From the NCBI RefSeq assembly GCF_003029735.1, contig NZ_KZ686269.1, forward strand, positions 1,426,001 through 1,490,000: a stretch of 64,000 nucleotides of DNA. The letters are read 5' to 3'. The notes below the pieces were generated by a model that was given only the letters and a program-made list of their open reading frames with translations, ran no database searches and was not told the DNA's origin. The position numbers and the translations under genes were made by a program. The stretch comes from Pedobacter yulinensis (lineage in GTDB: Bacteria; Bacteroidota; Bacteroidia; Sphingobacteriales; Sphingobacteriaceae). Of the stretch, positions 16,388-61,035 are shown piece by piece; position 1 is the first letter of the stretch; each line of letters starts with the position of its first letter.

Positions 16388-16747
16388 TCAGGCAGACCTT
16401 CCGTGCTCCTGCCGCGCCCATTGCGCCATAGCGGTCAGCACGGGGGTTAGGCGCGCACCCGACTCGCTTAACTCATAAGTTACCACCGGTGGCATAACTT
16501 GCTCCGTAGTTCTGATCACGAGCTTGTCCTCCTGGAGCTGCTTCAGATGCTGGATCAGCATCTTCTCGGTCACGGAGGGTATCGCCCGTTTCAGCTCGCT
16601 GTAACGCTTTTTCCCGCTCATTAGCTGATACAGGATAATTGGTTTCCAATGCCCGCCAATTTTGTTCATTACATAACTGACCGGGCACAACAGTTCTGTT
16701 AACTGCTTATTTGCCTGCTGTGTGGAACTTTCTTTGATCGCTGCCAT
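16388..16747 (-). CDS. HxlR-family transcriptional regulator
   Basis: 119 residues from the ATG at 16747; the longer frame to 16870 overlaps the divergent gene. Cys20 in ELLCPVSYVMNKIGGHWKP is the family hallmark, followed by the winged helix (KRYSELKRAIPSVTEKMLIQHLKQLQEDKLV). It probably controls the divergent NmrA-like gene through the GTAAGTAC repeats at 16762-16787. Related regulators respond to quinones or other electrophiles. Confidence 0.9.
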   Translation of the reverse strand: MAAIKESSTQQANKQLTELLCPVSYVMNKIGGHWKPIILYQLMSGKKRYSELKRAIPSVTEKMLIQHLKQLQEDKLVIRTTEQVMPPVVTYELSESGARLTPVLTAMAQWARQEHGRSA

Positions 16748-27249: not shown

Positions 27250-28428
27250 TTAGTCCTTCACCTGTCTGAAATAAAAAGCCAGGCCGGCAAAACAAATGGC
27301 AACGCCTGTCAGGCCCAGCGCCAGCGGCAGGGAAAAGTGAAAAGCTACAAAACCCAGCAGGCCGGGACCCGCAAGCTGTCCGGCATAACCCATTGTGGTG
27401 ACCGCCGGAATGGCCACCGCAGGCGGCACATGTTTCAGCTTTCCTGCAGCAGAGAAAAATACCGGAACCGTATTGGCTGCACCCAGGCCAAGAAGAACAA
27501 AACCAAGCAGGGCCGTGATGGTCCAGGGTGTGCTCACTGCAAGCAAGAGCCCGAAGGCCGCGAGCAGTGTTCCCCACAGCACAATTCTACGCGAACTGAA
27601 CCGCTCGATCAGTCCATCGCCCAGCAGCCGCATGGTTGCCATGGCCACCGAAAAGGCGGCATAACCCGATCCTGCGAAAGCCGCCTCCATACCCCGGTGT
27701 TCGCGAAGCAGCAGCGCGCTCCAATCCAGCATGGCCCCTTCGGCAAGGAACAGCACAAAACACATGAGCCCAAGGAAGAGCACAGCCGGTCTGAGCCATA
27801 GCATCCTTGCCCCGGGATCTCCCTGCTCTGCCGCAGGCTCTCCCCCATCCAGTTCTGCGCCCCGGTCAAGCAGGAAGCGGAACTGAAGCAGCAGGATGGC
27901 GGCCAGCAACGCCGATATACTCAGCGCGGCGATACCCGGCGAAAGGCCCAGGCTGATCAGGAAACCAAGTCCCAATGAACCACATAACCCGCCAACGCTG
28001 AACAGCCCATGAAAAGATGATAAAATATGTTTTCCGTACAGGTTCTGAACCACGACCGCGTGTGCGTTCATCGACACGTCGATCGCCCCCACGCCCGCAC
28101 CGAAAACGAACAGGCCAATTCCCAGCGTTATTGGTGTGGCCAGCCAAATGAGTAAAGGAAGCGTCGCCGCCGTCAGCAAACCGGAACACAACATGACCAG
28201 GCGACTGCCCGCGCGGTGCACAAGCAGGCCCGCAAGCGGCATCGCGACGATTGCCCCCGCACCAAGCAGCAGGAGCACCATGCCCAACGCCGCATCGTCC
28301 AGCTGCAGCCGGTCTTTTGCGAAAGGAACCATTGGGGCCCAGCTGGCTACACCCAGTCCGCAAACCAGGAAAACAGACTTCGTCGCCTTGCGCGCACGCC
28401 TTACATCGGCTGCAGATATTTCTTTCAT
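27250..28428 (-). CDS. MFS transporter, YbjJ/MosC-like
   Basis: 392 residues with 12 predicted membrane spans. GAGVGAIDVSMNAHAVVV is the signature of the MosC/YbjJ branch of the major facilitator superfamily; MosC is linked to rhizopine, YbjJ is uncharacterised. It probably moves a small sugar-like solute or a drug across the inner membrane. It follows a secreted hydrolase gene by 47 bases, and that gap is packed with GCAAT repeats and a promoter. Confidence 0.85.
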   Translation of the reverse strand: MKEISAADVRRARKATKSVFLVCGLGVASWAPMVPFAKDRLQLDDAALGMVLLLLGAGAIVAMPLAGLLVHRAGSRLVMLCSGLLTAATLPLLIWLATPITLGIGLFVFGAGVGAIDVSMNAHAVVVQNLYGKHILSSFHGLFSVGGLCGSLGLGFLISLGLSPGIAALSISALLAAILLLQFRFLLDRGAELDGGEPAAEQGDPGARMLWLRPAVLFLGLMCFVLFLAEGAMLDWSALLLREHRGMEAAFAGSGYAAFSVAMATMRLLGDGLIERFSSRRIVLWGTLLAAFGLLLAVSTPWTITALLGFVLLGLGAANTVPVFFSAAGKLKHVPPAVAIPAVTTMGYAGQLAGPGLLGFVAFHFSLPLALGLTGVAICFAGLAFYFRQVKD

Positions 28429-28431
28429 TTT

Positions 28432-28474
28432 GCAATATTATGCAATAATTATAAAAATCGCAATTTGTTGCAAT
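28432..28474 (-). promoter_or_regulatory. Four GCAAT repeats overlapping the MFS promoter
   Basis: GCAAT begins at 28432, 28442, 28460 and 28470, so spacing is 10, 18 and 10 bases. Read on the minus strand, TTG (28463-28461), 20 bases and TAATATTG (28440-28433) form the promoter, and the repeats coincide with both elements. The ATG is 4 bases beyond the -7 box. Looks like a two-site operator controlling the MFS gene. Confidence 0.55.
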
Positions 28475-58813: not shown

Positions 58814-58862
58814 AACTTGCAGATTAAAAGTTAATTATTAATTTCAACTTGCAATTTAAAAG
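58814..58862 (+). promoter_or_regulatory. MoaF-like gene promoter with 17-base direct repeats
   Basis: AACTTGCAGATTAAAAG (58814-58830) and AACTTGCAATTTAAAAG (58846-58862) lie 32 bases apart. The TTG of the first (58817-58819) is the -33 element; 19 bases on comes TAATTTCA (58839-58846), a -7-like box, and the second repeat begins right there. A variant, AACTTGTCAATTGAAAG, is in the HxlR promoter. Confidence 0.55.
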
Positions 58863-58875
58863 CTATAGAACACAT

Positions 58876-59190
58876 ATGAATTACATTGGCAAAACACTCA
58901 TGGTTGATTTCGGTATGGCCCGGGCTACACTCAGGATAAACAGCGAAACCTCACTCACCTTCCGGATTCTTGAAAAGGACGGCCAGACCGTAAGCACCTC
59001 TGAAACCGTATCGCTGAAGCTGATATCCCTTCGGCCCGATCTGTGCCTGCTATGCTGGCAGGAACAAAGCGGCGTAACGGTTTCGCAGGTACATGATTAC
59101 AGCAATGGCGCCATTCACTCTATCTGGACCACTCCCGGTGCTGCACTGCAGCAGTTCAGCGGTTCGCTGAAAGTGACCGAAGCTGTTTGA
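58876..59190 (+). CDS. MoaF-like small protein
   Basis: 104 residues from ATG 58876. The order GKTLMVDFGMARATLRI, SLTFRILEKDG, ETVSLKLISLRPDLCLLCWQEQSGVTVSQVHDYSNG and a beta-rich end matches MoaF-domain proteins, a lipocalin-like fold of mostly unknown function. It is probably cytoplasmic. It converges with the HxlR gene (16 bases apart) and shares its promoter motif, so that regulator may control it. Confidence 0.75.
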   Translation: MNYIGKTLMVDFGMARATLRINSETSLTFRILEKDGQTVSTSETVSLKLISLRPDLCLLCWQEQSGVTVSQVHDYSNGAIHSIWTTPGAALQQFSGSLKVTEAV

Positions 59191-59206
59191 CACCGGGCTG
59201 CGCAAC

Positions 59207-59629
59207 TTAGGCCAGCGGCTTACCTGAATTGAGTTGTGCAGCTACCTGTCCAAGTACCTCAGCGCGGTTTTCCCGGTAAGCAGCCGCAAAGTCCCTGGCC
59301 CGGGCAGGCGTGTCGAGGTGCGCATCGGCCCAGAGTGAAATTTCCAGGAGCACCGGCACCAGTCCGGCTCCCTTTGGCGTAAGTTCGTAAAAAATCTTGG
59401 CCCTGCTTGCAGGGTGTTTTTTCCGAGCAATGATACCCCCGGCTTCCAGCCCCGCCAACCTGCTGGCCAGTATATTGGTGGCGATCCCTTCGTCTGACTT
59501 TAAAAATTCGTTGTACGTGTTTTTTCCAAAAAAGGCAATATCCCGTACAATCAGTAAAGTCCACTTGTCACCAAAAATTTCCAGCGCGCAACTGATCGGG
59601 CATGCTGACCTGCTTTTTTTCTCTGCCAT
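59207..59629 (-). CDS. HxlR-family transcriptional regulator
   Basis: 140 residues from ATG 59629; the longer frame to 59656 would place the start in the promoter. Cys10 and Cys14 lie in RSACPISCALEIFGDKWTLLIVRDI, the family hallmark; LKSDEGIATNILASRLAGLEAGG is the recognition region. A perfect promoter with a 4-base leader lies upstream, and its AACTTG motif also occurs twice upstream of the MoaF-like gene, suggesting both are regulated by this protein. Confidence 0.9.
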   Translation of the reverse strand: MAEKKSRSACPISCALEIFGDKWTLLIVRDIAFFGKNTYNEFLKSDEGIATNILASRLAGLEAGGIIARKKHPASRAKIFYELTPKGAGLVPVLLEISLWADAHLDTPARARDFAAAYRENRAEVLGQVAAQLNSGKPLA

Positions 59630-59633
59630 CAAC

Positions 59634-59666
59634 CAAATGTACGTAATCACTTTCAATTGACAAGTT
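59634..59666 (-). promoter_or_regulatory. HxlR promoter sharing the AACTTG motif
   Basis: On the minus strand, AACTTGTCAATTGAAAG (59666-59650) includes TTG (59663-59661), then a 19-base spacer and TACATTTG (59641-59634). The start codon at 59629 follows after 4 bases. Confidence 0.65.
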
Positions 59667-59805: not shown

Positions 59806-61035
59806 ATGAGAATCTCAATTTTACTTGGCAGCTGCCTGCTGCTGGCCGCCTGTTCCAAACAAAAACAGACAGCCGAACCGGCCGAAACCCAGGCACAGAA
59901 CTCTATCCCGTCTATGACCGCAGCGGTACCTGCCTGGCGGCTCGTATTTTCAGACGAGTTCAACACCGCAGGGAATTTCGACGCCACCAAATGGGGGTAC
60001 TGTCCGCGGCAAACCTCGGCCTGGAACAAGTTTCTGACGTCAACACCCAACTACGCCTCTGTTAATGGCACCGACCTGGTTCTGAACATGGATAATGCCG
60101 TTATTGCCGGCGACAATGTTCCGTACCATTCAGGCGGCATCCAGACCTCGGGCAAATTCAGCATCCGGTATGGCAAGGTTGAAGTACGGGCAAAGTTCAA
60201 AAAAGGGCAGGGTTCCTGGCCGGCCATCTGGATGATGCCAGAAGTGCCTGTTTCATACGGTGGCTGGCCGAACAGCGGTGAAATAGACATCATGGAACAT
60301 GTAAACTATGAAAATGTTATTCATCAGACCATCCACAATGGTTCTGTGACCAATGCCAATGGAGGAAGCACCGCAACCCATACCGCTTCTTACAACGCCG
60401 CCGATTACAACATTTATGGCATTGTGTGGACGCCCTCTGCTATCCAGTTTTATGTGAACAATGTGCTGCAGTACACCTATTCACGGGCGGCGAACGCGAC
60501 CTCGTTGCAATGGCCGTTTGACAGGCCTTTTCACCTGATCTTAAATCAATCAGGCGGAGCCGGCTGGCCGGGAGCCATTACCAACGCAGACCTTCCGTTC
60601 AATATGATGGTAGACTGGGTCAGGATTTACAAGCAGGAAGAACTGATAAACCCTGGCTTCGAAGACGCCAGCCTGACACCCTGGGCTGCGGGCCCCAACA
60701 CGGCCGTGGTAACCAACAATATGCGCTCGGGAACCAAAGCGATCCGGCACCAGGGCAGCACGACCTCGCTCGAGCAAACAGTGACCGGCCTGCTGCCCAA
60801 TACCACGTATGTTTTTGGCGGTTATGGCAAAGTAAGCGCTGCCGGAGAGTCGGTGATCATTGGGGTTAAGAATTACGGAGGCGCTGCAGTGGGAACGCAG
60901 ATCACGAGCACAACCTACCAGCAGCGATCGGTTACCTTTACGACCGGGGCATCGAATACATCGGCCGTGGTGTATTTCTATAAACCGAATACCGGTACTG
61001 CCTACGGAGATGATTTCTACCTGAACAAACAGTAG
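59806..61035 (+). CDS. Glycoside hydrolase family 16 lipoprotein with carbohydrate-binding domain
   Basis: 409 residues; lipoprotein signal (LLGSCLLLAAC, Cys16). The beta-jelly-roll catalytic domain has the signature EIDIME: nucleophile Glu159, Asp161 and acid/base Glu164. Residues 280-409 form a CBM4/9-like beta-sandwich (NPGFEDASLTPWAAG). Expected to be an endo-beta-1,3-glucanase or galactanase at the cell surface. It is near the SusCD locus but on the other side of the HxlR gene. Confidence 0.92.
   Translation: MRISILLGSCLLLAACSKQKQTAEPAETQAQNSIPSMTAAVPAWRLVFSDEFNTAGNFDATKWGYCPRQTSAWNKFLTSTPNYASVNGTDLVLNMDNAVIAGDNVPYHSGGIQTSGKFSIRYGKVEVRAKFKKGQGSWPAIWMMPEVPVSYGGWPNSGEIDIMEHVNYENVIHQTIHNGSVTNANGGSTATHTASYNAADYNIYGIVWTPSAIQFYVNNVLQYTYSRAANATSLQWPFDRPFHLILNQSGGAGWPGAITNADLPFNMMVDWVRIYKQEELINPGFEDASLTPWAAGPNTAVVTNNMRSGTKAIRHQGSTTSLEQTVTGLLPNTTYVFGGYGKVSAAGESVIIGVKNYGGAAVGTQITSTTYQQRSVTFTTGASNTSAVVYFYKPNTGTAYGDDFYLNKQ

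Follow-up and report, generated by a model that had tools for sequence, protein, structure and literature searches.

The locus studied here raises the question of whether a short sequence motif shared by two facing genes of Pedobacter yulinensis marks the operators of a single regulator. The genes lie in a stretch of 64 kb (hereafter the window), which was searched together with the whole genome of 4,310,771 bases. The predicted target (58876 to 59190, plus strand, ATG at 58876) encodes a MoaF-like protein of 104 aa with a PF22036 domain, and the predicted self-regulating repressor gene, hxlR (59207 to 59629, minus strand, ATG at 59629), encodes a protein of 140 aa with a PF01638 domain. The two genes are convergent, with stop codons 16 bp apart. 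The initial annotation had claimed that a 17-base motif occurs twice before the moaF-like gene and once before hxlR, that its TTG forms the -33 element of both promoters with a spacer of 19, and that HxlR autoregulation plus control of a target would explain this arrangement.

The two copies before the moaF-like gene were placed exactly as claimed, the first at 58814 to 58830 (AACTTGCAGATTAAAAG; coordinates and letters re-checked) and the second, 32 bp from it, at 58846 to 58862 (AACTTGCAATTTAAAAG). The single copy in the hxlR promoter was also where it had been reported, at 59650 to 59666 on the minus strand (AACTTGTCAATTGAAAG), and all three copies matched AACTTG-N7-AAAG exactly. The promoter geometry agreed as well, since N19 was found each time: the TTG at 58817 to 58819 (plus strand) is followed by a putative -7 element of the moaF-like gene at 58839 to 58846 (TAATTTCA), and the TTG at 59663 to 59661 by the -7 element of hxlR at 59634 to 59641 on the minus strand (TACATTTG). 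Compared with the -7 consensus TAnnTTTG of Bacteroidota sigma-A promoters, as given in an excerpt of PMC9723704, the moaF-like box is weak (4/6) and the hxlR box is perfect (6/6). The -33 TTG of the moaF-like gene lies within the upstream copy only, and the second copy is on the predicted start site. Since only 4 bases separate its -7 box from the ATG, the hxlR mRNA probably has no leader or almost none. Leaderless hxlR was rejected as a conserved trait: at 2 of 132 loci, the window's included, the best box was a perfect TTG-N19-TAnnTTTG at this distance of 4 bases from the ATG.

Within the window, the exact pattern AACTTG-N7-AAAG occurred three times, always at this locus. Allowing one mismatch gave 8 places against a shuffle mean of 5.5, no clear excess, so that the weight rests on the exact form and on the clustering. 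A genome-wide search, which the initial annotation had suggested as a check, returned 11 exact places, 3 of them at the locus, versus 20 for the reversed control pattern. The 17-mer proved to be a cut-out part of a larger imperfect palindrome with arms AACTT and AAGTT around 9 bases. Predicted operator 1 of the moaF-like promoter (58814 to 58832, plus strand; AACTTGCAGATTAAAAGTT) has perfect 5-bp arms (AACTT-N9-AAGTT, 10/10) and contains the -33 TTG. Arm matches were 9/10 both at predicted operator 2 (58846 to 58864, plus strand; AACTTGCAATTTAAAAGCT), which lies over the predicted start site, and at the predicted operator of hxlR (59648 to 59666, minus strand; AACTTGTCAATTGAAAGTG), which contains the -33 TTG of that gene. 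The bare half-site pattern AACTT-N9-AAGTT was discarded as a genome-wide query, with 153 places per strand at one mismatch versus 271 for the reversed control.

Relatives of the HxlR protein were collected in two sets, one from 101 genomes of the family, 17 of which had a match (own genome included), and one comprising the best 80 of 519 from named genomes. Near-duplicate loci (e.g., L020 and L117) were removed for the non-redundant count. The consensus before the relatives' hxlR genes was the palindrome TTACTTGCAnWWTGCAAGTnn. At a score of at least 12 of 14, it was found in 74 of 88 non-redundant hxlR upstream regions and in no downstream region, with a shuffle mean of 0.35; at a score of at least 10 of 14, the corresponding figures were 82 of 88, 5 and 10.3. 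The site was also present in 28/28 genus-mate loci, new ones among 54 places listed in 50 of 145 genomes, none of which had been used for the profile; in 26 of these 28, a second site lay 32 or 33 bp from the first. Conservation of the motif in relatives, on which the initial annotation had made its own proposal depend, was evident from both counts.

The arms used as the template of the first scan came from the window, which therefore had some influence on the site collection; the profile itself excludes the window's sites. This relatives-only profile ranked the three sites first to third in the 64 kb: operator 2 (20.9 bits), operator 1 (15.2 bits) and, as the weakest of the three, the hxlR operator (14.1 bits). 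The next-best place in the window (28419 to 28439, 10.7 bits) overlaps the start of a transporter-like ORF and looks like chance. Genome-wide, 5 places matched the profile at E≤10, with operator 2 at the top (E 0.65) and its other strand listed too; the hxlR operator was absent at this threshold. One whole-genome profile match falls at locus L155.

In the relatives, the gene next to hxlR varies. By simple ORF picking, 99 of 102 loci (the own locus and that of genome G001, described below, included) had a divergent ORF nearest upstream of hxlR. Among 96 divergent genes, SDR were the most frequent (51), followed by ketoacyl synthases (8), zinc-type dehydrogenases (6) and old-yellow-type flavoproteins (2), with several of SnoaL, DoxX and glyoxalase types. 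The operator thus persists beside hxlR although the partner gene comes from many families, which indicates that the site is that of the regulator, and these comparative data support the proposed circuit of HxlR autoregulation plus target. They also define sharply the operator and the promoter layout of a widespread HxlR clade, mostly of Bacteroidota; in the literature searched, we found no description of an HxlR operator with ACTTGC. At loci L020 to L025, L117 and L118, the gene divergent from the clade's hxlR encodes a beta-ketoacyl synthase, which is not the partner one would expect of a thiol-type regulator; loci with this pairing include those of Mucilaginibacter arboris and Chitinophaga skermanii.

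Cross-talk is possible, since the genome has 16 HxlR-family genes. The sites might be real HxlR-type operators with the moaF-like gene mainly under another of the 16 regulators, or under several, as would suit the rarity of the HxlR-moaF link and the case of G001, where the regulator of moaF seems to come from another HxlR subfamily. We consider this improbable, however: the 15 other HxlR loci all lacked the motif at 10 bits or more, and the window's hxlR both adjoins the moaF-like gene and has a copy of the site before it. Two further HxlR-family genes lie in the window itself, at about 2437 to 2703 and at 16406 to 16660, on the minus strand.

The HxlR protein scored 59.3 bits with PF01638 (cut-off, 20.8), and its sequence matched the structures of YybR (which we take to be HypR), YodB and QsrR. 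Identity with RrpB or RrpA (NCBIfam) was rejected, at 49.4 bits against a cut-off of 175 and 30.6 bits against 185, respectively. Its sole cysteines are Cys10, conserved in 100 of 102 aligned sequences, and Cys14, conserved in 40 of 102; by the conserved N-terminal Cys10, it probably belongs with the thiol-sensing HxlR/DUF24 subgroup. From the conservation of Cys10 and the oxidoreductase targets in relatives, we infer thiol sensing by this HxlR and a link to electrophile stress. According to excerpts of PMC7835342 and PMC8063818, related proteins detect electrophiles or oxidants through a Cys in the equivalent position. With the thiol-based HxlR (MarR/DUF24) repressors YodB, HypR and QsrR, the present system shares the family, the N-terminal Cys, a palindromic operator and the relatives' oxidoreductase targets, whereas its own predicted target is a MoaF-like barrel encoded by a convergent gene. 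Moreover, YodB prefers TACT-[7]-AGTA (excerpt of PMC8063818), while the clade described here has the same half-sites 11 apart (TACT-N11-AGTA) and so departs from the YodB-type spacing, and the window's HxlR has no counterpart of Cys101 of YodB.

Two sites were found in 77 of 100 relatives and three in 4; 6 had no site of at least 10 bits. Neighbouring sites in these 100 relatives were 32 or 33 bp apart in 53 of 85 cases. At loci with a spacing of 31 to 34, the proximal site carried the TTG of the target's -33 box in 80/82, a perfect TAnnTTTG stood at spacer 18 to 19 of the divergent target promoter in 65/82, and the distal site of two-site relatives lay over the start region, reading towards the target. 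This plan recurs in the moaF-like promoter, with a first site, the TTG, N19, the -7 box and, 32 bp from the first, a second site; the window's hxlR has a single site. On a 53-bp target-promoter profile made from 52 distinct promoters of relatives, the moaF-like promoter reached 43.3 bits, compared with 10.5 for the reverse strand of the same stretch, less than 0 for the other places listed and a best score of -2.6 in 40 shuffled windows. Both the operator and the 32-bp two-site plan on the target promoter are shared with divergent hxlR-SDR pairs, mostly of Bacteroidota; in those, however, one intergenic region serves both genes, whereas the predicted target has a separate promoter here and is convergent.

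Because the operators of the relatives and their 53-bp plan match here, the likely circuit is a thiol-sensing HxlR that represses itself and the moaF-like gene. The sequence shows three palindromic sites that are conserved with the HxlR clade, and a moaF-like promoter that agrees with the clade's target plan. On these grounds we regard it as highly probable that the three sites are operators of HxlR (59629-59207), whose dimers would repress both genes and be released on modification of Cys10. An HxlR dimer would bind each palindrome: one on the -33 element of its own promoter, resulting in autoregulation, and two at the moaF-like promoter, about three helical turns apart on the -33 element and the start site, where they would block transcription. 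Modification of Cys10 by an electrophile or oxidant would then release the dimers and allow expression of the moaF-like gene and hxlR, and the MoaF-like protein may have a protective role. Judged by comparison, the predicted circuit is of an ordinary kind and well supported, and its target and layout are unusual.

Activation of the moaF-like gene by HxlR, instead of repression, would have a precedent in B. subtilis HxlR, a formaldehyde-responsive member of the same family with a Cys at the equivalent place, which an excerpt of PMC7835342 describes as an activator that binds DNA better once formaldehyde cross-links Cys11 and Lys13. Such a mode is nevertheless quite unlikely here: the sites are on the -33 element and the predicted start site, with none upstream of -33, a position that fits repression, and Ile instead of Lys stands two residues beyond Cys10 (C10-P-I), so that the Cys-x-Lys pair and with it the B. 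subtilis mechanism are absent. Least credible of all is the idea that the two promoters merely share AACTTG as part of their -33 region and resemble each other downstream by chance. In its favour, AACTTG contains the -33 TTG, and the 17-mer with one mismatch shows no enrichment over chance in the window. Against it, relatives conserve the second half-site, on the AAGT side (C-A-A-G columns, 80 to 82 of 82), although this is no promoter element; a -7 box at N19 is missing for operator 2; and the 53-bp profile picks out the moaF-like promoter alone.

The predicted target of HxlR repression scored 89.3 bits with the MoaF_like domain PF22036 (cut-off, 27). Its model is an eight-stranded barrel (pLDDT 93.4), which matched the structures 5hal (TM by query, 0.87), MoaF 4q51 (0.85 to 0.86) and phenolic acid decarboxylases (0.71 to 0.80). 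Sequence similarity supported the match to 5hal only (E 2.7e-7), and comparison with phenolic acid decarboxylase sequences gave nothing significant (E 0.43 to 0.96). Glu63 aligns with the catalytic residue 64 of PadC. The MoaF-like protein has the fold of MoaF but less than half its length. We found no paper joining HxlR with MoaF, or MoaF with lipocalin, in the literature searched. MoaF-like genes are sparse, present in 22 of 399 family, 7 of 395 phylum and 2 of 395 class genomes (own counted in each), and no common partner was seen among the neighbours of other MoaF-like genes in two surveys, one of which covered 25 of 49 families.

The idea that this HxlR clade conserves a moaF-hxlR pair was rejected, since the DNA retrieved around hxlR contained a MoaF-like gene in 0/100 relatives and 0/28 genus-mates. 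Control of moaF-like genes by the same operator in other genomes was likewise rejected: none had a site of at least 10 bits before moaF, and the sole operator match at other moaF loci (L133, 11.1 bits) is inside the gene. A second convergent moaF-hxlR pair was found in genome G001 (locus L132, reverse-strand positions 1462 and 2317), whose moaF is 55% identical to that of the window and whose HxlR is 29% identical. A resemblance to the present operator upstream of the G001 moaF was weak (8.7 bits) and was given no weight. The palindrome AGTTA-N7-TAACT occurred before this moaF and between hxlR and the next gene, nitroreductase-like by eye, and nowhere else in 3.3 kb. It stood in exact form before 8/8 orthologues of the G001 HxlR that are 55 to 64% identical to it (L158 to L165); of two further orthologues, L167 has 9/10 of the palindrome and L166 lacks it. 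The loci collected, 976,584 bases with overlaps counted, contained one further exact copy of the palindrome, at L207:45. Since this palindrome is shared, conserved and otherwise rare, a second HxlR very probably controls the G001 moaF-like gene through its own operator. The two pairs may reflect either replacement of the regulator in an old pair or two origins.

The MoaF-like protein is thus tied to HxlR regulators in two separate ways, and the molecule on which it acts could be looked for among the inducers of the circuit. A tentative extension, which we put forward as a possibility, is that MoaF-like barrels of this kind are induced under stress and either detoxify or bind the electrophiles that HxlR senses, such as quinones or phenolics, and that a convergent moaF-hxlR module was kept or built twice with distant HxlRs, each with its own operator (nACTTGCA-N3-TGCAAGTn here and AGTTA-N7-TAACT in G001). 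On the other side of the window's hxlR, divergent from it and where an oxidoreductase is usual, lies a gene for a GH16 glycoside hydrolase with a carbohydrate-binding domain (59806 to 61035).
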